DNA from: Crateriforma conspicua
GTDB lineage: Bacteria; Planctomycetota; Planctomycetia; Pirellulales; Pirellulaceae
Reading direction: 5' to 3'
Assembly (NCBI RefSeq): GCF_007752935.1
Contig: NZ_CP036319.1
Coordinates: 5,622,501-5,686,500 of the forward strand
DNA length: 64,000 nt
Position numbers and translations under genes: made by a program. The notes beneath the pieces are model-generated. The model was given only the letters and a program-made list of their open reading frames with translations, had not been told where the DNA came from and searched no databases. The stretch's first letter is position 1. Each line of letters begins with the position of its first letter. Below, piece after piece: positions 4,426 through 63,650 of this stretch.

Positions 4426-5483
4426 GTGATTTCTGAACAGTCAAAACGAACCATTTTGGTCACTGGATGTGCTGGATTCATCGGCTTTCATCTTGCAAAG
4501 CGGTTGCTTGAAGACGGTGAGAGTGCTGTGGGTGTCGATAATCTCAACGAATATTTCAGCGTAGACCTGAAGTGTGTCCGTTTGCGAAAACTGAGGTCTT
4601 TTGACAGATTTGCATTCGAGGATTTTCACCTTGCCAATGATGCTGAAACGGTGCATTTGTTCCAGCGGTTTGACTTTGAAAGGGCCATCCACCTTGCCGC
4701 CCAGGCGGGAGTTCGCTACTCAATCGATAATCCAAAGGTCTATCTTCAATCCAATCTGGTTGCCACAGGAAACATCTTGGAAGGTTGCCGTCACCATAGT
4801 GTGAAACACCCTATCTACGCCAGCAGCAGCAGCAGTGCTTGTGGGGCGAATACTCGGCAGCCTTTTTCCGTACATGACAACGTCGATCATGCGATCAGCT
4901 TGTACGCAGCGACGAAGAAATCGAATGAACTGATAGCGCACTGCTAAAGCCATTTATACGGATTGCCGACAACCGGCCTAAGGTTTTTTACCGTTTACGG
5001 TCCCTGGGGGCGACCGGATATGGCGTACTACAAGTTCACGCGGGCCATTCTGCGTGGGGAACCGATCAATGTCTTTTGAGCCATGGCCGTATGAAGCGAG
5101 ACTTCACTTATGTCGACGACATCGTAGAGGCCATCGTTCGCATTGTCGACCATACAGCCACATCCAATCTTTCCTGGAACAGCAATGACCCTGACCCGGG
5201 ATCGAGTACGGCACTGTACCGCGTATAAACCTCGGCAACAACCAACCGGTCGAACTTTCCAGGTTTATTGAGATCATTGAAGAGAGTCTGGGCGTCAAGG
5301 CCAACATCAATTACCAACCCATGCAACCGGGCGAATGTATTGGAAACCTTCGCGGACGTCGATGATCTAATGCGTGTCGTCGGTTTTCGTCCGAGGACGA
5401 GCATTGAAGAAGGTATCGCAAACTTCGTGGATTGGTATTGTAATTACTATGTGGACGAAGTTCTGGAATTCGCGGCTGTTTGA
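4426..5483 (+). pseudogene. UDP-glucuronate 4-epimerase, decayed
   Basis: Conceptual translation gives a complete SDR-family nucleotide-sugar epimerase once four lesions are ignored. Frame 1 (4426-4947) has the Rossmann motif GCAGFIG, the NLNEYFSVDLK region and the catalytic YAATKKSNE, then stops at TAA 4945-4947. Past that stop the same frame continues with [20 protein letters not shown], the signature of UDP-glucuronate 4-epimerases. About 5076 the frame shifts by two extra bases before HGRMKRDFTYVDDI. About 5226 one base is missing inside VYNLGNN, and about 5333 there is one extra base before VLETFADVDDL. The tail runs to TGA at 5483. Intact homologs convert UDP-glucuronate to UDP-galacturonate. 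Both neighbours are intact, so this looks like true decay and not poor sequence. Confidence 0.93.
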
Positions 5484-5504: not shown

Positions 5505-6146
5505 ATGCATAAACGCACGTTTGACCTGCTTTCCTCGTCATGCTTGTTAGTGGTGCTGAGCCCGATCCTTTTTGTGGTCGCTGGTTTGGTCAGGCTACGC
5601 TTGGGATCGCCCATTTTCTTTCGGCAACGTCGCCCCGGGTTAAAGGGCAAGCCGTTTGAACTGATGAAGTTCAGGACGATGACCGATGCGCGCGATGCAA
5701 TGGGAAATTTGCTTCCGGACAATCAAAGAATGACAAGATTCGGACGGTTTTTACGATCGAGTAGCCTGGACGAGCTTCCCACGCTTTTAAATGTCATCCG
5801 TGGCGACATGAGCCTGGTTGGACCAAGGCCGCTGTTGATGGAGTACTTGCCGAAGTACACGGCAGAGGAAAATCGTCGGCATGAGGTGCGTCCAGGGATT
5901 ACTGGCTGGGCTCAAGTCAACGGACGAAACGCGATTCGCTGGGAAGAAAAATTCCGGCTGGACGTTTGGTACGTCGACCATCAAAGTTTGTGGTTGGATC
6001 TTTACATCCTGATGCTGACGGCGTGGAAGGTTGTTCGGCGGAGTGACATTAGTGCCGATGGGCACGCCACGATGCCAAAGTTTGAACGAAGGCCTTCGTC
6101 GAACAGCGTCTACGATCCAGCAGACGCATTGCCGAACATCAACTGA
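5505..6146 (+). CDS. Initiating sugar-phosphate transferase, PglC/WcaJ family (bacterial sugar transferase)
   Basis: A 213-residue monotopic membrane enzyme that transfers a sugar phosphate from a UDP-sugar to undecaprenyl phosphate, the first membrane step of repeat-unit assembly. It is the short PglC-type form: one N-terminal hydrophobic re-entrant helix (residues about 8-30, with a central SP), then the conserved PIFFRQRRPG, KFRTM, SLDELPTLLNVI with the catalytic Asp-Glu pair, GDMSLVGPRP and RPGITGWAQVNGRN blocks. PglC-type enzymes commonly use UDP-diNAc-bacillosamine or related 4-amino sugars, which agrees with the PglD- and PglE-like genes further on. It follows the dead epimerase by 21 bases. 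Confidence 0.95.
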   Translation: MHKRTFDLLSSSCLLVVLSPILFVVAGLVRLRLGSPIFFRQRRPGLKGKPFELMKFRTMTDARDAMGNLLPDNQRMTRFGRFLRSSSLDELPTLLNVIRGDMSLVGPRPLLMEYLPKYTAEENRRHEVRPGITGWAQVNGRNAIRWEEKFRLDVWYVDHQSLWLDLYILMLTAWKVVRRSDISADGHATMPKFERRPSSNSVYDPADALPNIN

Positions 6147-6170: not shown

Positions 6171-6479
6171 ATGCCCGAAAATTCGTTCCATAGTCTTGAC
6201 CGATCTCAATTGTCGAATCGAATTCGATTAGTTTTTGAAGAAGTTGCAAAGGACGGGGAAAAAGAATTTGCCTTGCGCGATGAAGATTCCACTGTTCTGC
6301 TGAATTCTGGTCTCGACTCATTAGATTTTGCGATCATTGTTGCTAGGCTAGAGGACGATCTCGACGTGGATCCTTTCGCTGCCTCGGATGATGCGTTCTA
6401 TCCGAAAACCTTTGGCGATTTTGTCGACTTCTATTTCAAGAACATGCCCGAGTCGAAAGAGTCGGGTTCGCCTACATGA
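6171..6479 (+). CDS. Acyl carrier protein
   Basis: A 102-residue protein with the 4'-phosphopantetheine attachment motif LNSGLDSLDFAIIV (Ser50) in an acidic helical context (EDDLDVDPF), the pattern of stand-alone acyl carrier proteins. A GGAG at 6160-6163, eight bases before the ATG, is a good ribosome binding site. The stop codon overlaps the start of the AMP-forming ligase (ATGA at 6476-6479), so the two are probably made in equal amounts. In this setting the ACP probably carries an acyl group destined for a sugar, not for bulk fatty acid synthesis. Confidence 0.92.
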   Translation: MPENSFHSLDRSQLSNRIRLVFEEVAKDGEKEFALRDEDSTVLLNSGLDSLDFAIIVARLEDDLDVDPFAASDDAFYPKTFGDFVDFYFKNMPESKESGSPT

Positions 6480-7939
6480 GCCTCCGCGATCAACTTCGAA
6501 ACGTTGATCCGTGCCGGCGTCTCTGGTCGACACAGGATGGGGGAACGTACACGGCGAATCGATTGCTGGACGAACTGAACACCGTTGGCGAAACCCTGAA
6601 CCGACTTCCTCGTCGTGTCGCTATCGTTGCCACGTCCAGTCTTGATCTCGCCTGGTTGCTATTGGTCCTTGACGGTGCCCTTGAGCAGATTTCCATCGTT
6701 CCGTCAGGCGTTGATCAGACCACACGCAATCGACTACTGAAATCTTCCGGCGCCAATGGGGTGATTTGTTGCGAAAACGCGCCTGTCACAGAGTTTTTTC
6801 CGGCCGTACGCCTGAAATCGATAAATTCAACGAACCCTATCGCAGTTGGCAAATTGGGTAAATCGAGTGCAGAATTCGCATTGGGCTCGCCTCAAGGGAA
6901 TGCAACCAAACGAACCGGGCAAGCCACCCGATGGCAAATGTGTACGTCTGGCACAAGCGGGCCACGGAAATGGGTTAGCCACACGCTGCGGTCGCTGACA
7001 AAATCATTGAAACGAAACACGGAGGCTGGTGCGAAATTTCGCTGGGCATCCATCTACGATCTTTCCAGTTTCGCGGGTCTACAAGTATTTCTACAGAGTT
7101 GGTATGCCGGTTCCGAACTCTTGATGGTCGACCATCAAGAGCCGATACAGGATCGAGTGAATTTCTTGGCCGATTCTGGATGCAATGCAGTTTCAGCGAC
7201 TCCATCAACATGGCGCGTCCTTCTGATGAGCACCGCGATTGCGTCATTGCGATTGAAGCAAGTAACACTGGGGGGAGAGCCTGCGGATCAACTGATACTG
7301 GACACGTTGCAAAGAACATTTCCAGACAGTCGGGTCACTCATATTTATGCTTCAACGGAAGCGGGCGCGGGTTTTGCGATATCGGATACACGTGAGGGAT
7401 TCCCAGCGAGCTACTTGCACACTCCCCCCCGAGGATTGGAACTTTGCGTCAGCTCGAACAGTACCTTACTGATTCGCCCTGAATGTTTTGACCAACATTA
7501 TGCTGGTTCCAAACGGCCGATTCAAAACGCCGACGGTTTCATTGACTCCGGTGATCTTGTCCGTCGCCAAGCAGATCGTTTTGTGTTTTGTGGTCGTGCC
7601 GATGGGGTGATCAATGTGGGAGGAAGAAAAGTTCATCCGTTTGAAGTTGAGTCTTGCTTGCTGCGGCATGACAGTGTCTCGATGGCCCATGTTTTTGCTC
7701 GGCGGAGCCCTATCGTTGGCTCGCTTGTACAGGCCCATGTTGTGTTGCGAACCGGCTTGAGTCCCACACGAGAAATCAAAACGTCCCTCATGAACCACTG
7801 TAGGGGACATCTGCAGCCACATCAGGTTCCTGCCAGCTTGAGAATAGTGGATTCGCTGCAGCTGTCCGACAATGGAAAGCTTCGTAGAGCGACACAGGAA
7901 TCGTCTGACCCTAAGACATTCACCACAGTTTCAAATTGA
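6476..7939 (+). CDS. AMP-forming acyl-ACP/acyl-CoA ligase family protein
   Basis: A 487-residue ANL-superfamily enzyme. The A3 phosphate-binding loop is CTSGTSGPRKW (residues 156-166), the A5 region is IYASTEAGAG, and the hinge/A8 region is FCGRADGVINVGGRKV; the C-terminal NGKLRRA carries the expected catalytic lysine (Lys468). It should activate a carboxylic acid with ATP and load it onto a thiol. Overlap with the ACP start/stop makes that ACP the likely acceptor. It is shorter than typical fatty acyl-CoA ligases (about 550). The substrate acid is not predictable from sequence. Confidence 0.9.
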   Translation: MSLRDQLRNVDPCRRLWSTQDGGTYTANRLLDELNTVGETLNRLPRRVAIVATSSLDLAWLLLVLDGALEQISIVPSGVDQTTRNRLLKSSGANGVICCENAPVTEFFPAVRLKSINSTNPIAVGKLGKSSAEFALGSPQGNATKRTGQATRWQMCTSGTSGPRKWVSHTLRSLTKSLKRNTEAGAKFRWASIYDLSSFAGLQVFLQSWYAGSELLMVDHQEPIQDRVNFLADSGCNAVSATPSTWRVLLMSTAIASLRLKQVTLGGEPADQLILDTLQRTFPDSRVTHIYASTEAGAGFAISDTREGFPASYLHTPPRGLELCVSSNSTLLIRPECFDQHYAGSKRPIQNADGFIDSGDLVRRQADRFVFCGRADGVINVGGRKVHPFEVESCLLRHDSVSMAHVFARRSPIVGSLVQAHVVLRTGLSPTREIKTSLMNHCRGHLQPHQVPASLRIVDSLQLSDNGKLRRATQESSDPKTFTTVSN

Positions 7940-7997
7940 AAGTCTGACCGATGCGGCTTCCTACCGAATCGATACTGCCCCCCTTCCGTTTGCGTCA

Positions 7998-8756
7998 ATG
8001 ATGCCTGACGAACCATACCATGAACATCGAGGAACTGTCGTCGTCACTGGGGCAACCCGTGGCCTGGGTTTGGCCATTGCTGCGCGACTCGCAAACGATT
8101 GCTTTCAAGTGATTGCCACCGGTCGATCAAAAAGCCGGCAGTTTTGCGAGCTCGAAGACGACCGCCAAATCCAGAACCACGTTAAGTTTGCCGAGCTTGA
8201 TTTATCGAATCACACCAAGATTCGGGAAACGGCACGGACGATCGAGAAGGAACACGGGCCGATCCTTGGGCTTGTGAACAACGCTGCAATTGGCACAGAT
8301 GGAATTCTTGCAACCATGCATGAAACACAGATCATTGAGCTGATTAATGTGAATGTCACTGGGACGATCTTGCTGACTAAGCATCTAGCACGGTCGATGC
8401 TGAAACGCCGCACTGGGCGAGTCATTAATGTAGCGTCGATTATTGGACACACTGGGTACAGCGGACTAAGCGTCTACGCGGCAAGCAAATCGGCAATGCT
8501 TGGTTTCACCAGATCGTTGTCGCGGGAACTGGGCAAAGCTGGAATTACCGTCAACAGTGTTTCCCCTGGCTACATGGAAACCGACATGACAAAGTCAATG
8601 TCGGCCGATAAGCTTTCGACAATTGCCCGCCGAAGTCCAATGTCAAAGCTGGTCGACGTCCGAGAGGTAGCAGGCACGGTGGCATTCCTGCTAAGTGAGG
8701 ACGCAAAATCCATCACTGGAACAGACATCGTGGTGGACGCAGGCAGCCGTGCGTGA
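7998..8756 (+). CDS. SDR-family reductase, FabG-like (3-oxoacyl-ACP reductase)
   Basis: Classical short-chain dehydrogenase/reductase: TGATRGLGLA cofactor motif near the N-terminus, NNAAIG, the catalytic serine in INVASIIGH, the YAASKSA active-site Tyr/Lys, and the SPGYMETDM loop typical of 3-oxoacyl-ACP reductases. It probably reduces a 3-oxoacyl-ACP to the 3-hydroxyacyl form. The frame is open back to 7872, inside the ligase gene, but the Rossmann strand starts only after the ATGs at 7998/8001, which lie 58 bases past the ligase stop. It converges on the minus-strand acyltransferase with a 13-base gap. Confidence 0.9.
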   Translation: MMPDEPYHEHRGTVVVTGATRGLGLAIAARLANDCFQVIATGRSKSRQFCELEDDRQIQNHVKFAELDLSNHTKIRETARTIEKEHGPILGLVNNAAIGTDGILATMHETQIIELINVNVTGTILLTKHLARSMLKRRTGRVINVASIIGHTGYSGLSVYAASKSAMLGFTRSLSRELGKAGITVNSVSPGYMETDMTKSMSADKLSTIARRSPMSKLVDVREVAGTVAFLLSEDAKSITGTDIVVDAGSRA

Positions 8757-8769
8757 AACCAGCAAGGTC

Positions 8770-9408
8770 TTATTGAATGAACGGGCGTTTCACAATCTTC
8801 AAATTCCTGCTGGTGCAAAGCATGCCGTCCGCGATGTCGCGATCAATATGCGTCAGGGCATCAACTTGGCAGTCTTCACCCACCCGACGGCCTTGATGAA
8901 CAAATGAGTTTGCTCCCAACAGGGTACGCGCACCGATCGAGCAGTTACCACTGATTTTGGCACCGGGATTCACCGTCGCGTGGCTTTCGATCGACGCGTC
9001 GTGACCGACGGACACCTGAAAATTGATCATTGCATGATCTGCGATCTTTGCATTGACGGAGATGATTGAGTGCGCGCCGACGTATACGCCCTCTCCGATC
9101 TGAGCCGTTTTGGAGATCAATGCCGTGGGATGAATCACGGTAGAGGGAGTCAACCCGTTTGACTTGGCAATGCTTAGGCAACTGCGTCGAACCCTCTGGT
9201 TCGCCATCGACAAAATGTATCCACAATGGGCCGAGAATTTGATCGTTGCAATGTCGCTGATCGGGATCTGCAGATCTCGGTCAGAATACTCCTTCTCTGG
9301 CACAACGAACTTCGCACTATTGAAGGTTGTGCTGTTCGCGAGGGCGGCTTCCGCAATCTCGAGCGCCGTGCTATGGCTTCCGAAAATATAAAGGGTGCCT
9401 GAAATCAT
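8770..9408 (-). CDS. NeuD/PglD-like sugar acyltransferase, inverted in the cluster
   Basis: A 212-residue protein with a short N-terminal nucleotide-sugar-binding Rossmann half (LYIFGSHSTALEIAEAA) and, from about residue 90, a left-handed beta-helix (IGEGVYVGAHSII, MINFQVSVGHDASIESHATVNPG, IGARTLLGANSFV). The VGHDASI histidine matches the catalytic base of sialic-acid and bacillosamine acetyltransferases. It is the only minus-strand gene in an otherwise + cluster, and its ATG (9406-9408) overlaps the ATG of the next, divergent gene in the tetranucleotide CATG. No ribosome binding site is visible upstream. It resembles the following gene in fold but is not a recent duplicate. Confidence 0.85.
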   Translation of the reverse strand: MISGTLYIFGSHSTALEIAEAALANSTTFNSAKFVVPEKEYSDRDLQIPISDIATIKFSAHCGYILSMANQRVRRSCLSIAKSNGLTPSTVIHPTALISKTAQIGEGVYVGAHSIISVNAKIADHAMINFQVSVGHDASIESHATVNPGAKISGNCSIGARTLLGANSFVHQGRRVGEDCQVDALTHIDRDIADGMLCTSRNLKIVKRPFIQ

Positions 9409-10087
9409 GGTTCAACAAGCTAAGTTGACAGAAAACGCGGATTCACAAGGCCGGATCTGGCACGAAAACAATGTTCTGGTCATCGGCGCGGGCGGCCACA
9501 GTAAAGTCGTCTGTTCCACGTTGCGTTTGCTCGGGTGGAACATCATTGGCGCCCTTGACGACCACCCACAAGGCCAGACGAGTCTTCCAATTCTAGGTCG
9601 TTTATGCGAGATCGACGAGTACTGGAACGTACGAAAATTCATTGGCATCGGATGCAATCGTCTGAGGGCACAGATTGATTGCGACACACTGGTTTTTGTT
9701 CCAGGAATCGTCCATCCCGCGTCAACCGTGGACCTATCGGCTTCCGTCTCGGAAGGGGCCGTCGTTATGGCCGGAGCGGTCATTCAGGCCGATGCCGTCG
9801 TCGGACGGCACACAATCGTAAACACGCACGCGACCATCGAACATGATTGCACGGTCGGCGACTATTGCCACATTGCCCCGGCAGCATGCCTGACCGGTAA
9901 TGTCTCGATCGGACAAGGCACGCTTATCGGTGCGGGTGCCACCATCACGCCAGGGGTCTCGGTGGGCAGGTGGGCCGTGGTGGGGGCCGGCGCGACAGTG
10001 ATTAACAACATCGCAGATGGCCAAGTTGTGGTGGGAACACCAGCCCGCCCGATTCGGCAAACAGACACGATTCGCCCAAAGAGATGA
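9407..10087 (+). CDS. PglD-like UDP-amino-sugar acyltransferase
   Basis: The protein opens with a Rossmann strand and loop, NVLVIGAGGHSKVV, followed by a left-handed beta-helix with many hexapeptide repeats; VNTHATIEHDCTVGDYCHIAP contains the histidine pair of PglD/NeuD enzymes and the chain ends VVGTPARPIR. PglD acylates the 4-amino group of a UDP-linked 2,4-diamino sugar precursor. It sits directly before a PglE-like aminotransferase (12-base gap), as in bacillosamine loci. The ATG at 9407 has AAGGG 11 bases upstream; an in-frame GTG at 9395 would also do. Confidence 0.9.
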   Translation: MVQQAKLTENADSQGRIWHENNVLVIGAGGHSKVVCSTLRLLGWNIIGALDDHPQGQTSLPILGRLCEIDEYWNVRKFIGIGCNRLRAQIDCDTLVFVPGIVHPASTVDLSASVSEGAVVMAGAVIQADAVVGRHTIVNTHATIEHDCTVGDYCHIAPAACLTGNVSIGQGTLIGAGATITPGVSVGRWAVVGAGATVINNIADGQVVVGTPARPIRQTDTIRPKR

Positions 10088-10099
10088 AGAAGACTTAAC

Positions 10100-11266
10100 A
10101 TGCCGACACAAACTGGATCCCATAGCCGAATCTATTTGTCCCCCCCGTGCATGACTGACTCGGAGCGGACTGCGCTTTTACGAGCCTTTGATTCGGGTTG
10201 GGTCGCCCCGATCGGACCAGAGATTGATGCATTTGAAACCGAGTTCGCCGAAAGGGTTGGGGTTCGTCATGCCGTTGCATTAAGCAGCGGAACAGCTGCC
10301 TTGCACCTTGCCTTGCTCGCTTGCGGTGTGATGCCGGGAGACCGAGTCGCTGTCTCAACATTGACCTTTGTCGCTTCAGCAAATGTGATCCGCTACGTTG
10401 GCGCTCACCCAATCTTCATTGATAGTGAAGAAGCGTCGTGGAATATCGACCCGCAGCTCTTAAGGGAAGAGATTCGCGAACAAGATGCCAAGGGGACTCC
10501 GATCCGAGCAGTGATTGCCGTCGACTTATTTGGTCAATGCGCCGATTACACCAGAATCCGAAATACGTGCAACGAATTCGGTGTTCGGTTGATTGAGGAT
10601 GCGGCGGAAGCACTGGGGGCACAATGCAATGGGGCGTCGGCAGGTTCATTTGGCGAAATCGGCTGTTTCTCATTCAACGGAAACAAAATCATCACAACCA
10701 GTGGTGGTGGAATGCTTGTCACCAATCATGCCGCGCTGGCTGAATCAGTAAAACGCTGGGCAACACAGTCGAGGTTGCCGACACGACACTACGAGCATTC
10801 CGAGCTCGGCTACAACTATCGCCTGAGCAATCTCCTGGCCGCGATCGGGCGTGCTCAGCTGGCACGACTTGATGAGACCGTGAGACGCAGGAGACAAATT
10901 TTTGATCAATACGTCTCTCGGCTCGGGCCCCTTTCGGGCATCCGCTTCATGCCCGAGGCACCTGGGAACACATGCTCGCGATGGCTTACGGTTGCCTTGA
11001 TTGACGAATCAGAATTTGGCTGTGGACGTGACGCCGTCATCGATGCGTTGGAACAACAAAACATCGAGAGTCGCCCAACCTGGAAACCGATGCATTTGCA
11101 AGCCTTGTACGAGGGAGCGACTATTCGCGGCGGAAGTGTCAGTGAGCGAATATTTACCGAAGGCGTCTGTTTGCCGAGCGGCACATCAATGAGCGACGAC
11201 GCTGTGGATCGCGTTTGTGACGTGGTCCAAGCGACCGCGTCTCGCTTGACGATATCTAACGCTTGA
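10100..11266 (+). CDS. DegT/DnrJ/EryC1/StrS aminotransferase, PglE-like
   Basis: A 388-residue PLP-dependent sugar aminotransferase. SSGTAALHLAL (62-72) binds the cofactor phosphate, IEDAAEALGA (165-174) supplies the Asp that contacts the pyridine nitrogen, and SFNGNKIITTSGGGM (191-205) holds the PLP lysine Lys196. The N-terminal YLSPPCMTDSE and GWVAPIGP stretches match the family that makes 4-amino sugars from UDP-4-keto-6-deoxy sugars. With the upstream PglD- and PglC-like genes this indicates a bacillosamine- or viosamine-type sugar; the 4,6-dehydratase needed (PglF type) is not in the window. The stop codon is part of a hairpin at 11264-11284. Confidence 0.95.
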   Translation: MPTQTGSHSRIYLSPPCMTDSERTALLRAFDSGWVAPIGPEIDAFETEFAERVGVRHAVALSSGTAALHLALLACGVMPGDRVAVSTLTFVASANVIRYVGAHPIFIDSEEASWNIDPQLLREEIREQDAKGTPIRAVIAVDLFGQCADYTRIRNTCNEFGVRLIEDAAEALGAQCNGASAGSFGEIGCFSFNGNKIITTSGGGMLVTNHAALAESVKRWATQSRLPTRHYEHSELGYNYRLSNLLAAIGRAQLARLDETVRRRRQIFDQYVSRLGPLSGIRFMPEAPGNTCSRWLTVALIDESEFGCGRDAVIDALEQQNIESRPTWKPMHLQALYEGATIRGGSVSERIFTEGVCLPSGTSMSDDAVDRVCDVVQATASRLTISNA

Positions 11267-11284
11267 CCGTTTTCCTAACGGTCA
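11264..11284. terminator. Hairpin between convergent genes, overlapping a stop codon
   Basis: An 8-bp perfect inverted repeat (TGACCGTT at 11264-11271 and AACGGTCA at 11277-11284) with a 5-base loop. It begins with the TGA stop of the aminotransferase gene and ends 9 bases before the stop of the convergent VanZ-like gene. There is no T-run on either side, so it may be a transcript-end stabiliser or a bidirectional terminator without a U tract. Confidence 0.5.
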
Positions 11285-11293
11285 GCCGATCGA

Positions 11294-11722
11294 TTAATCG
11301 AGACTGTCCACACGATTAAGAAGAGACAGGTAATCGCTGGGAGAATCAGAGCCGGTTTTGATTTGCTTGGTCCATCCAATGCGAAGCACCGCCGTGATCA
11401 GGAATCCAATTAGCACCCCGAGAAGGTTTTGAGCCAGATCGACGAGCTCGAATGAGCGAGCTGGACTTACAAGATGAGTTGCCTCTATCGCAATTGCGTA
11501 GCAGGCAAGAAACACATATCGGGTCGCAATTTTAGGGGGGACACGAAGCCAGCTTGCTGCGACACTGAGGAGTAGCATTGAAAGAAAATGGACATAGTTC
11601 AAAAGGAACTCGCTCTCGAAGACGATCAGAGACAGAACCTCCGGTCCACGAGCGGAAGTGAACCCGACCACGGTCGCGCACCACAGTAGCCCGAACAGGG
11701 AAATCCGAAACCACTTCTCCAT
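11294..11722 (-). CDS. VanZ-like family membrane protein
   Basis: A 142-residue protein with four predicted membrane helices: near the N-terminus (about 7-25), 41-58, 68-85 and 102-122. The HF.S..L pattern after helix 2 and the ELVDLAQNLLGVLIG ending (D-x-x-x-N-x-x-G) fit the VanZ-like fold. VanZ confers low-level teicoplanin resistance in enterococci, but most family members stand near exopolysaccharide or envelope genes with unknown role, as here. It converges on the aminotransferase gene and is divergent from the next small secreted protein. Confidence 0.75.
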   Translation of the reverse strand: MEKWFRISLFGLLWCATVVGFTSARGPEVLSLIVFESEFLLNYVHFLSMLLLSVAASWLRVPPKIATRYVFLACYAIAIEATHLVSPARSFELVDLAQNLLGVLIGFLITAVLRIGWTKQIKTGSDSPSDYLSLLNRVDSLD

Positions 11723-11969
11723 CAGTCACCTTTTGCTGGTTCTCGTCAAATCGTCCGCTGGTTTTCGTCGCGTGTCCATCGTAGTCGATTGACAGAATTC
11801 GGATGTGAAGATTATCACGGCCCTCGATGAATTGATGACCGATGTGATTCATCCGCGAGATGGCTTGAGGTCTTCGTTGATTCCACCAATACAGGCTCAA
11901 GTACCATCTTCCAAATGCCGATATCCCCGCTTAGTAGGTATGATGGATAGTTGAGGCCATCCACACGGA

Positions 11970-12795: not shown

Positions 12796-15700
12796 TTGAA
12801 ACGCACCGTCAATACCAAAGCTGCACTCATATTGTTGATCGCGGTTACATCCGTTTCTGCGATCGCAGTCGGTTTACACTACTTCCAGAAGGGTCGGAGT
12901 GCGGAACTGTTCCTGTCGGCTGCACGGGAATCCGCAGAAGAGGCTGACGTGGAGGGAGCCATCCGCAGCTACAAGTCGTATTTGAAACTTCGAGCCGACG
13001 ACAATGAGGCACGGAAAGAGTTTGGACAGTATCTCTTTGACCTGGAGTTGTATGGCACCGCTAGCGAGGAGCTTGAGCACGCGTTGCGTTTGGAACCGGA
13101 CGCCACCGAGAGTCGCCGACTCGCTGCACGCTGCGCGATGCTGACCGGACGTGCGACGGACGCAGATGAACACATTCATCGAATTGAAGAATACGGCCAG
13201 GATGCTGAGTTGCTTGACTGGCTGGCACAGTGTTCCCAATATCGTTCGGAGCCAGAGGAGGCTGAGCGGCTATTTCGATCATCGATCGCAATTGACCCCA
13301 ACCAAGCCGAAGTTCATTTCCGTCTAGCAAACCTGCTTTCGCGCGTCATGGACCGCCCGACGGAGGCGGATGATGTGATGGAGGAGATGATCTCGGCTAA
13401 CGCAGATTCAACGATCGCTCATAGGCTTTATTCACAGTATTTGCTGTCGCGATCGTCCCACGCGCGGTCAATCGGCGAGGAGGAAGACGCTATTGAGTTG
13501 GTTTCCCGTTCGCTCAAGGAAGCTGAAAATGCTGTGGAGCTGGACCAAGAGGATTCCGACAGCTTGGTGCTGCTGGCAAATGCTCACTTATTGGCAGGCA
13601 ATCCCGGGGCTGCGAAAAAGGCTGCACTTTCTGCGCAGACTCTGTCGCCGAGTGATCCGCGATCAACACTACTTCTTGCAGAGCTGGAAGTCCGTGCCGA
13701 TGAGATCGACAAAGCGATCGAGTGGCTGACCGACGGCATTCGAGAAATCGGAGACACCCCCGCAACGGTACCCTTGTACGGAAGCCTTGCGGGCATCTAC
13801 TTGGATCAACAGCGACTGGAAGACGCGGAGCTGGCGATTGCCCAGATGCAATCACACGGAGCGGCCCCCGCCATGCTGGGATATCTGCAGGGCAGGGTAG
13901 CAGCAGCCAAGGGCCAATGGTTGGATGCGGTCAAACAACTGAAGCTTGTGCGGCCTTCCCTGGTGGGAAACCTACAGGTGCTTCGACAGTTGGATTTCGT
14001 TCTGGGGACCGGACACGAGATTTTGGGACAACCCGAGTTAGCGATGTCGGCCTTTCGACGTTCGATTGAGTCGGCTCCGGACTGGATTGCCCCTAGATTC
14101 GCGCTGGTGCGTGTTCTCGAAGCGTCCGGCCAACTTGAAAAGGCATACGCGGAAATGGTCGATCTGATGGCCCTTCCGAGTGCGCCCCGCGAGGGCCTGA
14201 TTCAGCTGGGACGACTCGCACTCGCTATCAATTCACGCCGACCGTTCGCAGAGCGTGACTGGGCGACGACCGAGCAGATCGTGCATCGTGCAGTCGCAGA
14301 ACTGGGCGATACCCCAGATGTCGCGGTCCTAAAATCACAATTGTTGATTGCTCAAGGCCACACTGACACTGCGAGCAAACTACTGGAAGATCATTCCTCA
14401 AATGCTGCCGCAGGTTCCGACGACACGAGCTGGACACTCTTGCTTGCCAAATCAAGGCTTGCTCAGGGGCAATCCAACTGGGAAACGGCTCAATCCCTGA
14501 TTGATCAAGCTGAGATGAAGCTCGGCATGTCGGCTGATCTGATCATCGAGAGGGCATTGTTGATCGCACGGCGTGACGGAAGCGACGGAGTTTCAACGAT
14601 CCAAGACATCGCCCAGAATGCGACTGGCCTGGACGGCGAAGATCAAGTCAGGGTGGCTGAACGACTGTCGGCGATCGTTCGTGACTTGGGAGATTCTTCC
14701 ACGGCGTTGCAGATGGTGCGGCCCTATCTAGAAGAACACCCAGAAAGAGTGTCCGTGTGGCAGTTAGCTTTCGAATTAGCGCTGTCCGAAAACGACCGGT
14801 TGCTCCAAACTCAAAGCCTCGATCGGATCCGTGCAATCCAGGGCGAAAGTTCTCTATGGCACTACTTCAGTGCGGTGAAAGACTGGTCGGCTGTGAAAGG
14901 CAAGGAACAAGAATTCGACCAACGAAAGATTTTCGCGCACCTTGATAGTGCTGAAGAGATGCGTCCAGGTTGGGGACTTCCCGCAGTACTGAGAGCGGAG
15001 ATTCTTCTGGATCAAGGGGACGACGATCTTGGCATCACACAATTGGTTTCGGCCATTGAGAACGGAGTGCGGTCCAAGGCAGTGGTTCAAAAAGCGGTTG
15101 CTTCACTCTACCAACGCCGCGAACTCGAAGAAGCAAACCGAATCCTAAATCTTGTCGACACCGCGGACCCTGAACTGGGGCGTCTTTCGTCCGTTGTGTC
15201 CTTAGGGCTGGAAGACACCGAGCGTGGGCTAGAGAAAGCAAGAAAGGCGGCCGAAGCTTCTGACTCATTTGAAGATCACCTGTGGTACGGGCGTGTGGCA
15301 TTTGCCACGGCACAAACGATGGGTGCCGACGAAAAATCAAATGTGGACCGGAATGCGTTGCTACTCGAAGCGAAAAACGCATTCCGTCGCGCCTGCGAAA
15401 TCAACCCAGAAAACCCCCAATCGTGGATCTCACTCATCGATATTGTCCGCCGGCAAGAGCAACCGGAAGACTTGGCCAAGCTTTCGCAAAAGGCGATTGA
15501 GGCCGTCGCGGAGGCGGATCAAGCCGCGTTGCGGGCACAAATACAGTGGATGACAGGCAAAGATTCTCAGGCCGAGAACACGTACGACGAATTGATTTCG
15601 TCGCCAAACCCGAATCCGGCTGTCTTGCGAAAAGCAAGCGAATTCTATCTGTCGAAAAGCCTGTTCGAGAAAGCAAAGAATGCGTTGACAGTGCTGACTT

Positions 15701-17091
15701 CCACAGACGGAACGAGCGAACAAGAATTGTTTTGGGCTCGGCGGCAGATCGCGCTAATGTCGCTCATGCGCCCCGAAATGGTGAAAAACGAGAATGCACT
15801 GTCACTGATTGAGAAAAATCTGGACGAAGCAGGCCCGAATTCCTCCGACTTGCGGGTCAAAGCTCGACTGCTGGCGAATTCACCGGAAACTCAGGTGCAA
15901 GATCTCGTATCCGCTTGGGAAGCAGTGACCGAATCTTCCCAGGGAAGGACGGCGAGCGATTACTCCAGTCTAGCGTTTGCTCGAATGAAATCGGGAAATC
16001 TTCAGGGCGCTCTGGCTGAGCAAAGATCTGCAATTGCGGCGGCCCAGACCACCGGAGAACGCAACCGTATGGTCACCCAGTACGCGGGATGGCTGCTGGA
16101 TCAAAACCAGTTGTCCGAAGCGGAAATCTGGCTGGAAAATCTCGAAGACGAAAGCGAGGCATCAAAAGCCACCCATTTGATTCGGGCCGATTTGGCGGCG
16201 AGAAAGGGAGATCACACCCGGGCAACTGAGTTACTGACAGACATCCTGAACACCATCACCAAGGATGGAGATTCCGATTCAGCAGGTGCAACCGCAGCAG
16301 TGCTAACCCAGGTTGGGCAAGCAGCAGAGCGAATTGCAAATCGCGTCGATTCCGATGCTCGATCCCGCTACACGAAAGTTGTAACTGCCGCGTTCCAGCG
16401 TGCAACCGACTTGAATGCCAGTGCACGATTCTATTTGGCATCATCGCTTTTGCACCAGAACAACATTGATGCTGCAATCACTCAGCTAGAGCGTACCCCT
16501 GTGCAGGAAGCTGAACTCGGGTTGGCGATACGGGCGCTCGACACCTTGGCCGTATCCAAGCAGCTTAACGAAAAACAGCTGGAAAGGCTTGAGATTTTGA
16601 CGCAGTCGTTGATAGAAGATTTTGGGCAAAGGTCGTCTCTTCAGATGGTCCGTGCTTCACTTGCGAAATCGAAGGGTGACGTCGATCAGGCAAGCAAAAT
16701 CTATCGCGATGTGTTAGGTTCCGACGAGCAGAATTTGATCGCACTGAACAACTTGGCGGTCTTGCTAAGCGAATCCGACGGCAGTTTGGCCGAGGCAGCA
16801 AACCTGTCCGATCTAACCATCCAGATTGCGGGGCGCATGCCGGCACTACTGGACACTCGAGCAGTCATTGCAATCGCATCGAAAGAGAACCAAGTCGCCT
16901 TGGAGTTGCTGAACGAGGCTACGCAAAAAGAACCAAACGCCATGTTTCTGTTTCACAGGGCGGTTGCCCAGCTTAAAGCGGGAAATCAAGATCTGGCCAA
17001 TGCCGACTTTCAAAAAGCCATCGCAATCGGGCTTGAATCGGACCAGTTTGGTAAACGGGAACTGGGTTGGTTCCAGATGCTGCAAAAATAG
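12796..17091 (+). CDS. Very large membrane-anchored TPR-repeat protein
   Basis: A 1431-residue protein with an N-terminal membrane anchor (about residues 8-27) and then almost wholly TPR-like helical repeats, with the W/L/G/Y/A/F/A/P spacing visible in blocks such as GAIRSYKSYLKLRADDNEA, AERLFRSSIAIDPNQAEVHF and the last repeats around SKIYRDVLGSDEQNLIALNN. The topology puts the repeats outside the membrane. Large TPR proteins of this type (the PEP-CTERM system TPR family) accompany exosortase and exopolysaccharide loci, and a CPBP protease, a Wza-like protein and PEP-CTERM substrates follow here. The only usable start is the TTG at 12796. It overlaps no gene; the next starts 38 bases after its stop. 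Confidence 0.88.
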   Translation: MKRTVNTKAALILLIAVTSVSAIAVGLHYFQKGRSAELFLSAARESAEEADVEGAIRSYKSYLKLRADDNEARKEFGQYLFDLELYGTASEELEHALRLEPDATESRRLAARCAMLTGRATDADEHIHRIEEYGQDAELLDWLAQCSQYRSEPEEAERLFRSSIAIDPNQAEVHFRLANLLSRVMDRPTEADDVMEEMISANADSTIAHRLYSQYLLSRSSHARSIGEEEDAIELVSRSLKEAENAVELDQEDSDSLVLLANAHLLAGNPGAAKKAALSAQTLSPSDPRSTLLLAELEVRADEIDKAIEWLTDGIREIGDTPATVPLYGSLAGIYLDQQRLEDAELAIAQMQSHGAAPAMLGYLQGRVAAAKGQWLDAVKQLKLVRPSLVGNLQVLRQLDFVLGTGHEILGQPELAMSAFRRSIESAPDWIAPRFALVRVLEASGQLEKAYAEMVDLMALPSAPREGLIQLGRLALAINSRRPFAERDWATTEQIVHRAVAELGDTPDVAVLKSQLLIAQGHTDTASKLLEDHSSNAAAGSDDTSWTLLLAKSRLAQGQSNWETAQSLIDQAEMKLGMSADLIIERALLIARRDGSDGVSTIQDIAQNATGLDGEDQVRVAERLSAIVRDLGDSSTALQMVRPYLEEHPERVSVWQLAFELALSENDRLLQTQSLDRIRAIQGESSLWHYFSAVKDWSAVKGKEQEFDQRKIFAHLDSAEEMRPGWGLPAVLRAEILLDQGDDDLGITQLVSAIENGVRSKAVVQKAVASLYQRRELEEANRILNLVDTADPELGRLSSVVSLGLEDTERGLEKARKAAEASDSFEDHLWYGRVAFATAQTMGADEKSNVDRNALLLEAKNAFRRACEINPENPQSWISLIDIVRRQEQPEDLAKLSQKAIEAVAEADQAALRAQIQWMTGKDSQAENTYDELISSPNPNPAVLRKASEFYLSKSLFEKAKNALTVLTSTDGTSEQELFWARRQIALMSLMRPEMVKNENALSLIEKNLDEAGPNSSDLRVKARLLANSPETQVQDLVSAWEAVTESSQGRTASDYSSLAFARMKSGNLQGALAEQRSAIAAAQTTGERNRMVTQYAGWLLDQNQLSEAEIWLENLEDESEASKATHLIRADLAARKGDHTRATELLTDILNTITKDGDSDSAGATAAVLTQVGQAAERIANRVDSDARSRYTKVVTAAFQRATDLNASARFYLASSLLHQNNIDAAITQLERTPVQEAELGLAIRALDTLAVSKQLNEKQLERLEILTQSLIEDFGQRSSLQMVRASLAKSKGDVDQASKIYRDVLGSDEQNLIALNNLAVLLSESDGSLAEAANLSDLTIQIAGRMPALLDTRAVIAIASKENQVALELLNEATQKEPNAMFLFHRAVAQLKAGNQDLANADFQKAIAIGLESDQFGKRELGWFQMLQK

Positions 17092-31092: not shown

Positions 31093-31780
31093 AGCACCAT
31101 CATCTCGTGGGGGGGGCTCAGTACCGGTAACCCGCAATCGGTATTCAATGCTTCACGCATTCCACAACTCAGTGAGCCATTCACGACGGCCGCAGCCTGG
31201 GACGCTGACCATCTGCGATGCTGCATTGCCTGTGCCGCAACAGTCCGCTGACTATCATGCCGAAGCCCTTCTGAACGCCCGCACGAGACAGATTGTCAAC
31301 TTGTGGTGGCGTTCAAATAGCCAGGCGAAGCTCAGCCGCCTCGGTGATCTGCTTTGGCATACACCCCTCTGCGTCGTCACTGCCAAATAACGAGCCGAAC
31401 GCATCCTGATGCCGAAAGCTCGCTCGAGTACGGCGTAACGGCCCCAATCTTTCTGCAACTCGCCAGTTCTGCCGTACGTTGCCCCAAGCGGACCGCGGAG
31501 CGATCGAGACGCTCACTGCCTTATGAGAACCGCCCCACACGAACACGATCGCCAGTGTGCTGCGACCAACTTTGCATTGCCTGATAGTCACACAGCCCCT
31601 TGCCATTCACATTCAATTCATCGAGATCATGAGAAACTTATACTCATTGACTTTGCTGTCTTGATACACTTTTTCCGTTCTTGCGGCGTTCAAGACTCTC
31701 GCAAGTCTGCAGCGTAGCGGTTTGCTGCGTGCACATATTCTGGCCCTCGTTTTGCTCCGCTGAATTCCTTGGTGTATTGG
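31093..31780. other. Intergenic region without a recognisable gene
   Basis: About 690 bases. Frames on both strands are short and basic and have no recognisable domain. The segment separates a terminator-less lipoprotein gene from the large nuclease-like gene and may contain remnants too old to read. Confidence 0.45.
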
Positions 31781-34564
31781 ATGCGCTCAAATTTTGTCCG
31801 CTGCGGTCGTCGCAATCGCCTCACTCTCGAAATCCTTGAAACGCGGCGGTTGCTCGCAGCGATGCGAGTCGCAACATGGAATGTCCTCAACAATCCTGAC
31901 AACACGACGGAAGATGCAGACTTTCGGACCGTTCTGCAAGCAATTGGCAACGAGACCGTGGGCTCTGTTACAAAATCACTGGATTTATTAACGCTCAGCG
32001 AAACAGACTCCAGTTCGATCTCTCGCGTTGAGTCGATTCTTGACGGACTCTATCCTCACACGGATTTCGGTTACGTCATCTCACCATCGGACGGGGGCGG
32101 CGACGCAACGGGTTTTGTCTATGACACGTCAACTATGCTTCTACAAGAAAGCATTCTGGTCCCCGGCGCGTTCACCCACACGACGTTGCGTGCGAAGTTT
32201 CGCCCCATCGGCACATCAGGAACTGAAGACTTTTTCGTTTACTCGACTCACCTGAAGGCAGGAACAAGTTCTTCCGACCGGTCCAGGCGAGGAACGGAAG
32301 CCTCGCTGCTTCACAATGATGCCAACAGTTTGGGGGAGGGCGCAAATGTACTAATCACTGGCGATTTCAATATGAAAACGAGCAGTGAGCCCGCGTGGAG
32401 CAATTTAACCGCTGCCGGCCCCGGACAGGTCTTGGACATCTATGGGCCGGGGGGTGCAGGAAGCTGGAACGATAACGGAAACTTTAAGCACCTGCACTCC
32501 CAAGATCCACGGACTAGCGGTGCCGGGATGGACGACCGCTTCGATATCCAATTTGCCAGTGGTGAATTCTTCGATGGTGTGGGCATTGACTACATCGATG
32601 GGTCATACCATGTTTTTGGGAACAATGGGACACACACACTGAACGGAAGCATCCTTACAGGTACGGGTGCGAGCCCAAGCGTCTTGCACGCTCTTGAGTC
32701 AGCGAGTGATCACCTTCCAGTTGTTTCGGACTTTGAGGTTTCGGACTCGGTGCAGGTGATAGTCAATCAGACGGGTGGAGGCACGTCGGTTGCGGAATCG
32801 GGAGTTTCAGATACTTACACGCTTAAGCTAAGCCATCCGCCCAGCCACTCCGTCACCGTATCGGTTGATCCCAACTCTCAATTGGACCTGGGCTACGGAG
32901 CGGGTGTGGCGAGATCATACATTTTTACACCTCAAAATTGGTCTTCGGAACAGACGATTTCAGTGACTGGCGTGGATGACTCGGTCGTCGAAGGCCCCCA
33001 TCTTGGCACAATCTCCCATTCTTCCTTCAGTTCCGATCCAGACTTTAATGGGCTATCGATCGAAAACATTTCTGTCAACATCATTGACAATGATTACGGC
33101 CCCGGAATCAGCATCACGCACAGTGGTGGTGGATTGGATGTTGCTGAAGGTGGCCAATCCGACAGCTATTCGGTTGTTTTGGATACTGCCCCAAGCTCCG
33201 ACGTGTCTGTTACAGTTACTCCGGATGGACAACTGGATCTCGGTTCTGGCCAGGCAACATCAGTCGTTCTGACGTTTACGCCATCAAATTGGCAGTCCCC
33301 TCAATCCGTTACCGTTGTGGCGTTCGACGATGCGGTGATAGAGGGTCCACACCTGGGCGGAATATACCATGCGACATCCAGCAGCGACCCGTCATACAAT
33401 GATCTGGCAATCGAGCAACTATTCGCTCAGGTTGCGGACAATGACTTATCGCCATCTCAGTCCGTGGTCATTTCAGAAATCATGTACAATCCGGATACCA
33501 GCGAAGTTGGCTCGCTTCCGGAATGGCTTGAAATTGTCAACACTAGCTCATCCCCAGTCGACCTCAGTGGCTGGTACTTTGCCGATGAAGACGCAAGCTG
33601 GGGATCCTTTCCTACCGGCACGATTCTTCCGCCGAATCAGGCCGCCGTCGTCTACGACAATCGCTTTACATCCGACTCAGTATTTCGGTCTGCATGGAAC
33701 ATCCCCAGCGACGCGATTGTTTCCGGCGTCCAATGGGGAAGCCTTTCCAATTCTCCTTCATCCAGCAATGAGGTACTGCGGCTGTTCGATGCCGGAGCAT
33801 TTGAAATCGACTACGTGAATTATGATGATGCGTTCCCCTGGCCCTCCGATAGCCCGGATGGACCGAGCATCTACCTGACTGACTTGCTGGCCGACAACAG
33901 CATGGGCGACAACTGGACGCGATCCTCCGTGGGGATCGATGGAGCACGTGCTGCTTCATCGCCGTTTTCATCAACCGACGTCGGATCTCCGGGCGATTTC
34001 CCGGCATTGCCAGCCCCCGCCTCTTTGATAGTGTCCGAGTCCCATGGATCAACTGCTGTCAACGAAGGCGGAATAGCGGACAGCATTCAGGTATCGCTTA
34101 CGGGAACCCCCAACTCAAACGTTCTCGTTACTCTAACGCCGACCAATGCACAGATCGACCTGGGCGCTGGCACGGGCGTTCCTCTGGTACTGACATTTAC
34201 ACCAGCGGATTCGGGAATCCCTCAGAGCGTTTTCGTTTCAGCGGAGATCGATGGGTTTGTGGAAGGATACCACTGGTCCGCGATTTCAATCTCCTCACAA
34301 AGTTCGGACCAAGCGTTCGCAAACTTGACTGCAAACGACATTACCGTTGGAATCCAAGATGTCACCCTACGTGGAGACATGAACGGAGACGGTCACATTG
34401 ACAGTTTGGACATTGCGCCGTTTTCAATCGCCATAATTGACCCACAGGCTTACGCACAAGCCTTTCCAGGATTCGACCCCAATGTGCTTGGTGACTTGAC
34501 CGGAGATGGCATCATTGACACGCTAGACATTGCACCGTTTTCGCAACTGATCATGGGCACATAA
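31781..34564 (+). CDS. Large secreted EEP-fold nuclease-like protein with lamin-tail domain, repeats and dockerin doublet
   Basis: A 927-residue surface or secreted protein. The N-terminus carries LEILETRRLLAA, the planctomycete variant of the export/sorting motif found on large surface proteins, followed at once by an EEP nuclease fold with ATWNVLN, TLSETD (Glu), THLKAGTS (His), ITGDFNM and SDHLPVVSD. Then come two copies of a beta-sandwich repeat (VAESGVSDTYTL..., VAEGGQSDSYSV...), a lamin-tail domain (VISEIMYNPDTSEVG, EWLEIVNTS, DLSGWYFAD), a third copy of the repeat (VNEGGIADSIQV...), and a C-terminal dockerin-like doublet. LTD plus EEP is known from extracellular nucleases. It is a paralog of the gene at 25441. 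Confidence 0.88.
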   Translation: MRSNFVRCGRRNRLTLEILETRRLLAAMRVATWNVLNNPDNTTEDADFRTVLQAIGNETVGSVTKSLDLLTLSETDSSSISRVESILDGLYPHTDFGYVISPSDGGGDATGFVYDTSTMLLQESILVPGAFTHTTLRAKFRPIGTSGTEDFFVYSTHLKAGTSSSDRSRRGTEASLLHNDANSLGEGANVLITGDFNMKTSSEPAWSNLTAAGPGQVLDIYGPGGAGSWNDNGNFKHLHSQDPRTSGAGMDDRFDIQFASGEFFDGVGIDYIDGSYHVFGNNGTHTLNGSILTGTGASPSVLHALESASDHLPVVSDFEVSDSVQVIVNQTGGGTSVAESGVSDTYTLKLSHPPSHSVTVSVDPNSQLDLGYGAGVARSYIFTPQNWSSEQTISVTGVDDSVVEGPHLGTISHSSFSSDPDFNGLSIENISVNIIDNDYGPGISITHSGGGLDVAEGGQSDSYSVVLDTAPSSDVSVTVTPDGQLDLGSGQATSVVLTFTPSNWQSPQSVTVVAFDDAVIEGPHLGGIYHATSSSDPSYNDLAIEQLFAQVADNDLSPSQSVVISEIMYNPDTSEVGSLPEWLEIVNTSSSPVDLSGWYFADEDASWGSFPTGTILPPNQAAVVYDNRFTSDSVFRSAWNIPSDAIVSGVQWGSLSNSPSSSNEVLRLFDAGAFEIDYVNYDDAFPWPSDSPDGPSIYLTDLLADNSMGDNWTRSSVGIDGARAASSPFSSTDVGSPGDFPALPAPASLIVSESHGSTAVNEGGIADSIQVSLTGTPNSNVLVTLTPTNAQIDLGAGTGVPLVLTFTPADSGIPQSVFVSAEIDGFVEGYHWSAISISSQSSDQAFANLTANDITVGIQDVTLRGDMNGDGHIDSLDIAPFSIAIIDPQAYAQAFPGFDPNVLGDLTGDGIIDTLDIAPFSQLIMGT

Positions 34565-62865: not shown

Positions 62866-62909
62866 GTTGAGAGTCCTTTGACAGGCGTCAAGTTGGCCGT
62901 ACAATCCTT

Positions 62910-62942: not shown

Positions 62943-63650
62943 ATGCAGGAAACGAACGCCCAACGGGCCTATGACTATCTTCGAAGCTGCCTGGTCCAGG
63001 GCGAATTCCTTCCGGGCGCACGCATCCGCTACGGACCGGTCGGAAAAAAACTGGGAATCAGTGCAACGCCAGTGCGCGAAGCAATCGGCCAATTGGCCAA
63101 CGAAGGATTCGTCGAATTGGTTCCGCAACTCGGCGCGGTGGTTCGACAAATCAGTCGCGACGAAGTGATCGAGCTTTACGAATTGCGTGAAGCGATCGAA
63201 CCCTACGCGACGGCGCGAGCGGCCGAACGGATCGAACAATCGCAACTTGATCAGATCGGCAAGCAACTGGATCGCATGACCCAGTTGACCGAACGGACGC
63301 GTCAATCATCATCGAAAAGCGTACCCAAGAAGACCGTTCGCAGTTTTGAACAAGCTGACTTGGCGTTTCATATGCTGATCATCGAAGCAACGGGAAATCG
63401 CACGATGCTGCGAACCGTTGGCAATTCACACCTTTTGACGGGAATATTCTCGGTGGCCCGTCACGGATACGACGCGGGGGTGATGCAAGCGACCTGCGAC
63501 GACCACAAACGCATCCTAACGTCACTGCAACGCAAGAAACCCGACGCGGCCCGCGATGCAATGGCGGTGCATATCCGCAATGGCCTTGAAATTTCGCTCG
63601 CTGGGATCACCGACGACGACCATCGCTGGTGGGATGCTTCAAGTCGCTAG
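62943..63650 (+). CDS. GntR-family regulator, FCD (FadR-like) subgroup
   Basis: A 235-residue regulator: winged HTH (FLPGARIRYGPVGKKLGISATPVREAIGQLANEG) and a C-terminal all-helical FCD domain (ELYELREAIEPYATARAAE, then a ligand and metal site with FEQADLAFHMLIIEATGN, NSHLL and CDDHKRIL). The FCD domain binds organic acids, often sugar acids. It is divergent from the sulfatase/sialidase operon and is followed by a symporter gene, so it probably senses a breakdown product of the polysaccharide. The ATG starts 20 bases past the palindrome, so self-repression is likely. Confidence 0.93.
   Translation: MQETNAQRAYDYLRSCLVQGEFLPGARIRYGPVGKKLGISATPVREAIGQLANEGFVELVPQLGAVVRQISRDEVIELYELREAIEPYATARAAERIEQSQLDQIGKQLDRMTQLTERTRQSSSKSVPKKTVRSFEQADLAFHMLIIEATGNRTMLRTVGNSHLLTGIFSVARHGYDAGVMQATCDDHKRILTSLQRKKPDAARDAMAVHIRNGLEISLAGITDDDHRWWDASSR

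Follow-up and report, generated by a model that had tools for sequence, protein, structure and literature searches.

An ACP-ligase-SDR triad beside two PglD-like acyltransferases in Crateriforma conspicua: a candidate acyl supply for a surface 4-amino sugar

Background

Surface amino sugars bear many short acyl groups, which are able to decide serotype, phage receptors and immune recognition. A locus that may supply such a group is described here from a 64,000-nt stretch of the genome of Crateriforma conspicua, a single contig of 7.18 Mb; the whole stretch is called the window, and window coordinates are positions within it. The locus encodes an acyl carrier protein (ACP), an AMP-forming ligase and a FabG-like short-chain dehydrogenase/reductase (SDR), together referred to as the triad, along with two acyltransferases of the PglD kind and a PglE-type aminotransferase.

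Flavobacterium psychrophilum has a 3,5-dihydroxyhexanoyl group on the Qui2NAc4N of its O-polysaccharide, and the R-group genes wfpC-G occur with pglE and pglF (PMC6519341). A PglD homologue is predicted to move the ACP-bound acyl group to UDP-Qui2NAc4N, and 3-ketoacyl-ACP synthase (KAS) and reductase genes are present (PMC6519341). The Crateriforma locus shares with this system an ACP, a 3-ketoacyl-ACP reductase-like gene, a PglD homologue and a PglF type, and it has a candidate PglE, but the acyl supply differs: F. psychrophilum has two 3-ketoacyl-ACP synthases and the main text of PMC6519341 makes no mention of a "ligase", whereas the window has a ligase and no nearby KAS III.

The viosamine island of Pseudomonas syringae (vioA, vioB, vioR, vioS and acp) makes an N-(3-hydroxy-1-oxobutyl) amino sugar, with the chain coming from a 3-oxoacyl-ACP synthase III, or KAS III (PMC3927599). 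ACP, 3-oxoacyl-ACP reductase, aminotransferase and sugar acyltransferase genes lie together in both loci. The first-pass annotation of the window drew on this island, and the likeness holds for the ACP, the reductase and the acyltransferase but not for the acyl supply, which is KAS III-fed in the pseudomonads; the product there is a dTDP sugar on flagellin rather than the UDP sugar on a polymer proposed here. As a member of the ACP-KAS-ketoreductase-acyltransferase type of module, the window has the ACP, the ketoreductase, the sugar acyltransferase and the aminotransferase but lacks a local KAS III.

Vibrio cholerae O1 has an acylated perosamine as its O1 antigen; WbeL is predicted to act in tetronate synthesis, and a wbeL deletion strain is devoid of the antigen (PMC3441752). 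Both systems involve a protein predicted to provide an uncommon acyl group for the amino group of a 4-amino-4,6-dideoxy sugar, but the V. cholerae sugar is an O-antigen perosamine and the likeness of WbeL to the window ligase is one of predicted role. We take WbeL to be a ligase, and the other tetronate acyl genes to be of LuxC and alcohol-dehydrogenase type.

In the flagellin glycosylation islands of Aeromonas Group II and of enterobacteria, sugar genes are joined by genes for an ACP, a 3-oxoacyl-ACP reductase and either an AMP-dependent synthetase or a CoA ligase, to which no role beyond a suggested "liposugar" is assigned (PMC7874193, PMC4875605). These genes are accompanied by luxE and luxC, and in Aeromonas also by pse genes, and the gene numbering suggests another order. 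Finally, the Crateriforma locus has candidates for all four enzyme types of the Campylobacter-type PglF-E-D-C pathway, beside which stand the ACP-based acyl cassette and one more PglD-like enzyme.

No tested function for an ACP-ligase-SDR triad was found in the literature searched, which was mostly without subscription papers. Given the tetronate, viosamine and F. psychrophilum precedents, the window is a variant and not a new kind of system. What is new is an acyl supply that is probably ligase-fed instead of KAS-fed, together with two classes of PglD-like enzyme.

Gene content of the module

The ACP, ligase and SDR genes are a portable triad that recurs in many kinds of bacteria. In the best reading, a UDP-4-amino sugar would receive a short acyl group, probably a hydroxylated one, that the triad of the window has built on its ACP. 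The genes concerned are as follows.

5505-6146, plus strand: P0007, a small PglC-type phosphoglycosyl transferase (PGT); PF02397, 219 bits
6171-6479, plus strand: P0001, the ACP, with its carrier Ser in GLDSL; PF00550, 20.8 bits, exactly the gathering score
6476-7939, plus strand: P0002, the AMP-forming ligase; PF00501, 58.8 bits, and PF13193, 47.3 bits
7998-8756, plus strand: P0003, the FabG-like SDR, with TGATRGLG and YAASK motifs; PF00106/PF13561, about 178 bits
8770-9408, minus strand: P0004, a PglD-fold acyltransferase of class B (GHD), without the C-terminal GxPA; TIGR03570, 128.4 bits, below the cut-off of 160.8
9395-10087, plus strand: P0005, a PglD-type acyltransferase of class A (EHDC, GTPAR); TIGR03570, 200.9 bits, above the same cut-off of 160.8, and PF17836 (PglD_N)
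10100-11266, plus strand: P0006, a PglE/LegC-type sugar-4-aminotransferase; PF01041, 330 bits

The six genes that the first-pass annotation named within 6171-11266 are all present and belong to the families it gave. It had also reported that ACP and ligase share an ATGA, and this 4-nt overlap of stop and start was found at 6476-6479. It had noted neither the minus-strand orientation of P0004 nor the PglC-like gene upstream. ACP, ligase and SDR are adjacent in that order on one strand (6171-8756). The SDR start at 7998 is a choice, as an earlier in-frame ATG lies at 7872, and the protein scores 217.9 bits with the 3-oxoacyl-ACP reductase model TIGR01830, under its cut-off of 297.75. P0004 lies tail-to-tail with the SDR, 13 nt apart, and head-to-head with P0005, the two start codons overlapping at 9406-9409; P0005 may start at the GTG at 9395 or the ATG at 9407. 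The ACP has 60% identity over 55 residues to the ACP adjoining the ligase of Qingshengfaniella, and P0006 is 57% identical to its relative in another triad locus, L023.

A search for inverted repeats able to explain the flip of P0004 gave just short, chance-like ones of 10-15 nt. Counts of promoter-like sites (5, compared with 4.0 and a standard deviation of 2.1 in shuffles) and of terminator-like sites (2, compared with 6.9) carried no signal.

Recurrence of the triad

Species genomes were scanned with a profile of nothing but the ligase. Of the 396 relatives obtained, the best 80 were kept for neighbourhood counts. An ACP lies upstream of the ligase in 76 of the 80 loci and an SDR downstream in 76, with both in 74, as detected with neighbour profiles seeded only from the window and the earlier loci L013-L026. 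Since these loci were picked on the ligase alone, the association of the three genes exceeds chance. Three of the six misses (L058, L075 and L094) are truncated by contig ends, and three (L041, L059 and L089) are not. A 4-nt overlap is possible at 32/76 ACP-ligase joints and at 43/76 ligase-SDR joints. The other neighbours in the 80 loci, counted with home-made profiles and thus as lower bounds, include a DegT aminotransferase (35), a PseI/NeuB-like synthase (31), a NeuD-like gene (15), a PGT (9) and KAS III (2). A PGT stands upstream of the triad in L018, L021, L023 and L082.

Going by the titles of the records, the hosts belong to the Pseudomonadota, Planctomycetota, Verrucomicrobiota, Chlorobiota, Ignavibacteria, Balneolaceae, Anaerolineae and others. 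The ligase is patchy in its distribution: matches at E 1e-39 or better occur in 4 of 39 other genomes, a genome of the same genus has none better than 4e-12, and in a second set, with up to four candidates scored per genome, one of 391 other genomes passes E 1e-25. Annotated plasmids of Qingshengfaniella and Haematobacter carry the triad behind a small gene annotated as an acyltransferase, and Azospirillum plasmids carry it between pseI and flagellin, with KAS III. In phage records the AMP-ligase matches were no more than remote, with none of the 16 records reaching 60% identity, and a single-protein pattern scan of genome contigs for relatives matched 50 stretches and confirmed none.

The Azospirillum loci L015, L016 and L017 have pseI followed by a second ACP, an alpha/beta hydrolase, the triad and KAS III, with flagellin next in two annotated records; this is possibly an acyl module for flagellin pseudaminic acid. 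The Haematobacter ligase (L014:9119-10996) has a long low-complexity insert before its P-loop, rich in Gly, Pro, Thr, Ser and Gln.

Gene fusions in relatives

Two fusions join NeuD-family domains to other parts of the module. An open reading frame (ORF) of L018 (10365-11276, minus strand) encodes a 303-residue protein with a NeuD domain at residues 1-201 and an ACP domain at 227-296. In L082, from Adhaeretor mobilis, the 669-residue product of ORF 9780-11789 (plus strand) has a NeuD domain at 6-207 and an aminotransferase at 269-649. Such fusions, we infer, often unite partners of one reaction path. The order of L082 (PGT, ACP, ligase, SDR, NeuD, NeuD-aminotransferase) is that of the window, save that the first NeuD gene of the window is inverted.

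The proposal made at first pass, that a carrier-protein acyl group is delivered to a 4-amino sugar, draws support from these fusions, from the conservation of the triad across phyla, often beside sugar genes, and from the PglF-E-D-C types in the locus. We regard transfer of acyl-ACP to the amino sugar as somewhat more likely than not.

Two classes of PglD-like acyltransferase

P0004 and P0005 fall into different classes in an alignment of 18 PglD-like proteins from these loci. The eight rows of class A share N-T, and their catalytic His is preceded by Asp or Glu, which in P0005 is Glu. Class B (10 rows) has Gly before this His in eight rows, L025 and L052 being the exceptions, and mostly [FLV]xG[TMSA][HN] further on; P0004 has Gly. 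In PerB the aligned His is H141, the one altered in the mutant structure 4eaa, and Asp stands before it. A tree of 17 of the 18 proteins, which has many long branches and leaves 7 of its 14 inner branches open, unites P0005 and the fused domains of L018 and L082 in a class-A group with seven members (support 96/90) and places P0004 as sister to the L023 protein (support 100/99).

P0004 is below the TIGR03570 cut-off, yet its predicted fold is that of the NeuD/PglB/VioB family. The AlphaFold2 model has a predicted local distance difference test (pLDDT) score of 88.6, and the best Foldseek matches are PglB-ATD, PerB, PglD, VioB and WeeI, with LpxA and LpxD ranking lower in both E-value and TM-score. 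The nearest solved relatives of P0005 are 4m98, 4ea7 and 7txp. P0004 and P0005 are the only two clear NeuD-family proteins of the genome (128 and 201 bits), the other 12 matches being partial and at most 56 bits.

The Gly of class B was compared with the presence of an ACP gene at 80 of 82 places outside the window (two were left out), taken from among the matches listed for the class-B profile in 294 genomes of the phylum. Neighbourhoods reached 4 kb to either side, or less where a contig ended, and some ACPs may have escaped the search. Genes with Gly before the His had an ACP nearby in five cases and none in six, and genes with another residue had it in none of 69 (Fisher p = 1.9e-5, which overstates independence because the rows are related to each other). 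The 69 comprise 57 with Asp or Glu and four in which the His itself is absent. With the stricter GHD mark, four of five genes have an ACP nearby, L188 being the exception. Three of the five cases with Gly and ACP (L141-L143) have KAS III genes, and in the other two (L212 and L218) an SDR is present along with a ligase-like gene. Beside the triads of L021 and L023, just one PglD-like gene was detected, and it is of class B.

Class-B membership, the confident PglD fold and the kept His, set beside the standard PglD score and motif of P0005, suggest a division in which P0004 uses acyl-ACP and P0005 acetyl-CoA. As judged from sequence, the role of P0004 as the acyl-ACP user is a tentative assignment, which we would put a little under even chances, and P0005 is perhaps an ordinary acetylating PglD. 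Two simpler marks did not stand. Loss of GxPA was dropped as the sign of an acyl-ACP class, since P0004 and the L023 protein are without the motif and several other class-B members keep a form of it, and a rule that class A always acetylates is weakened by the class-A PglD-ACP fusion of L018.

A candidate amino-sugar pathway around the triad

The exopolysaccharide locus around the triad has candidates for the enzymes of a diacetylbacillosamine (diNAcBac) pathway. P0007 is closest among solved structures to PglC (8g1n, 222 bits), ahead of WbaP (130 bits). A PglF-type dehydratase (PF02719, 401 bits) is encoded beyond the edge of the window, with some 13 kb separating it from the ACP gene downstream, at genome coordinates 5614605-5615453 (L026 ORF 10571-12601); it is the only full-length PF02719 match in the genome, the next scoring 58 bits. 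P0006 scores 359 bits with the LegC model TIGR04181 (cut-off 420) and 267 bits with the PseC model, both under cut-off, and its best solved relative is 1o61 (273 bits). Eight DegT-family matches occur in the genome, and only P0006 lies within this locus. P0005, with its score and PglD_N domain, is the candidate PglD. With PglF, PglE, PglD and PglC types together, the locus could by itself make and transfer a UDP-4-amino sugar. Another of its proteins combines a ParA-type ATPase domain with a Wzz match that falls under the threshold.

This gene set also fits an ordinary diNAcBac-type route, in which PglF, PglE, P0005 and PglC would together produce a 2,4-diacetamido sugar with acetyl-CoA and hand it on, the triad serves another target (a polymer O-acyl group or a lipid) and P0004 is a decaying duplicate. 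The PglC-type PGT and PglF are there, P0005 is over the NeuD cut-off with acetyltransferases solved with acetyl-CoA or CoA among its best solved relatives, and P0004 is under the cut-off, inverted and without GxPA. P0004 is, however, an intact ORF with the catalytic His, a confident PglD fold and a sister in the same gene order in L023, and pairs of class A and class B recur in L018, L061 and L082. We consider this route unlikely, if the most serious of the alternatives. With the window, the pair is found in 4 of the 94 loci examined, and so it is not peculiar to the window.

Two claims of the first-pass annotation went further than the data. One was that acyl-ACP is used in place of acetyl-CoA; P0005, which resembles an ordinary PglD, may well use acetyl-CoA. 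The other was that two acyltransferases would allow two acylated positions; with only one DegT-family aminotransferase in the locus and acyltransferases of different classes, the two enzymes may just as well vie for a single amino group, or one may N-acylate and the other O-acylate.

The ligase and the acyl group

The ligase P0002 has intact catalytic motifs, with both the AMP-binding and the C-terminal domain and a K468 that is nearly invariant in the alignment. Its AlphaFold2 model (pLDDT 89.9) has the ANL fold. No KAS III lies near the locus, the nearest of four PF08541 matches in the genome being about 0.99 Mb from the ACP gene, and KAS III occurs in just two of the 80 triad loci, which points to the ligase as the likely supplier of the acyl group. 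Given a FabG-like SDR and the lack of a nearby KAS III, the simplest scheme would have a 3-oxo acid loaded and then reduced, or a hydroxy acid loaded with the SDR acting otherwise.

At position 198 the window ligase has Ser where 52 of the 55 aligned rows have Arg and two have Leu; three Azospirillum ligases outside the 55-row set have Ala, Thr and Ala. The position aligns with the His of the FHISG stretch of MenE, which we take to line the acyl pocket. The Ser in place of the common Arg suggests that the window ligase may load an acid unlike that of most relatives. Structure searches with the ligase and acyltransferase models gave the fold class and no acid specificity.

Against solved structures the ligase profile matches MenE (138 bits), then the D-alanine--carrier ligase 7vhv (118 bits), with Cfl and 4-chlorobenzoate ligase also among the nearest. 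The second match suits a Dlt-like module, in which the ligase would charge the ACP with an amino acid such as alanine, a PglD-like enzyme would put it on the sugar and the second acyltransferase would N-acetylate it, giving both acyltransferases work. Yet the FabG-like SDR that follows the ligase in 76 of the 80 loci has no obvious role in aminoacyl loading, and Asp195 of the ligase, presumably near the amino-acid-binding position of adenylation domains, is kept in just 32 of 55 rows; a Dlt-like module is improbable. The triad might instead anchor the glycan through an acyl group of long-chain or lipid-like kind, in line with the liposugar component proposed for islands with ACP, ligase and 3-oxoacyl-ACP reductase genes (PMC4875605, PMC7874193). 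This is very unlikely: KAS III is absent from the vicinity, a scan of proteins of the locus turned up no elongation gene, and the sugar N-acyl groups of the compared systems are short (3-hydroxybutyryl, dihydroxyhexanoyl and tetronate).

Proposed mechanism

Delivery of a short acyl-ACP to the amino sugar would proceed as follows. The first sugar of the exopolysaccharide would be a UDP-4-amino-4,6-dideoxy sugar, made by the PglF-type dehydratase and the PglE-type aminotransferase, and the PglC-type transferase would probably start the repeat unit with it. The ligase would adenylate a free short acid and load it on the dedicated ACP, and the SDR would reduce the bound group. Most simply, a 3-oxoacyl group such as acetoacetyl would become a 3-hydroxyacyl group, in that case 3-hydroxybutyryl. 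A PglD-fold enzyme, with P0004 the likelier user, would then move the acyl group from the ACP to the 4-amino group. P0005 would be the likelier acetyl-CoA-type PglD, and the two may be rivals for one amino group or come in at different points of the pathway. The earlier interpretation is thus partly supported and right in outline, with the changes that the inverted P0004 is the likelier acyl-ACP user and that two positions are just one of several options.

Several observations weigh against this mechanism. Starting with P0004, a simple consensus scan found no promoter-like site immediately 5' of it, which with its inversion makes its expression uncertain, and no ACP was found in the neighbourhood of 6 of the 11 Gly-type genes. 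In L018 the PglD domain joined to the ACP belongs to class A, like P0005 rather than P0004, and so class A may also use acyl-ACP; L063 and L110 likewise have a class-A PglD-like gene directly before the ACP. The L018 fusion is itself a single case from a draft genome, and no PglD-ACP fusion covering both parts was found among the matches listed from the 294 genomes of the phylum, with at most seven candidates scored in each. The closest solved ligases are mixed (CoA ligases, the D-alanine carrier ligase, a b-aminoacyl-ACP synthetase and adenylation domains), and the ligase sequence does not decide between CoA and ACP as acceptor, ACP being indicated by the gene neighbourhood. L041 has no detected ACP, and L059 and L089 have neither partner detected.

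The gene after the SDR also varies, being PglD-like, LpxA-like, GNAT, another or none, so that no single acyltransferase is fixed to the triad. Among 42 chosen proteins, 14 are hexapeptide (PF00132), eight GNAT (PF00583) and three Antibiotic_NAT; the set holds 38 proteins picked from the 80 loci by short gap and length, and four from planctomycete loci and the window (L018, L021, L023 and P0004) that are all hexapeptide by class, so the tally is not a rate for all 80.

Other features of the region

Several further genes were seen in and around the window. A GalE/UDP-glucuronate-epimerase-like gene at 4426-5483 (plus strand) is broken: its N-terminal part (PF16363, PF01370) runs into an in-frame stop after 173 codons, and what follows of the gene is spread over other frames. 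The polysaccharide genes are followed by a 1431-residue repeat protein, TPR-like by eye, at 12796-17091 (plus strand). The same exopolysaccharide locus encodes an exosortase (PF09721, 173 bits; L026:6571-7512), and an integrase-core (rve) transposase-like gene (L026:14020-14889), roughly 5 kb before the window begins, separates the PglF-type gene from the polysaccharide genes of the window.

A nuclease-family protein with a lamin tail domain (PF03372, PF00932) and a weak, sub-threshold dockerin match is encoded at 31769-34564 (plus strand). A sulfatase (PF00884; 56924-58492, minus strand) and a protein of 1004 residues bearing FG-GAP and BNR repeats (59890-62904, minus strand) are encoded divergently from a GntR/FCD regulator at 62943-63650. 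A DUF1559 protein with a prepilin-type N-terminus was also detected, a feature associated with planctomycetes.

Implications

For many acyl groups of surface sugars the genes that supply the acyl are only predicted. A triad that spans many phyla, often beside amino-sugar genes, offers a simple assay, namely which acid the ligase puts on the ACP. The triad may even be a general mobile cassette that moves free acids to a private ACP for surface amino sugars across phyla, with class-B PglD-like proteins as distinct acyl-ACP-dependent nucleotide-sugar acyltransferases and with the window ligase, having Ser for Arg, loading a different acid; taken as a whole, this generalization is doubtful at present. 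The two PglD classes, largely separable by one residue, provide a testable rule for telling users of acetyl-CoA from users of acyl-ACP.

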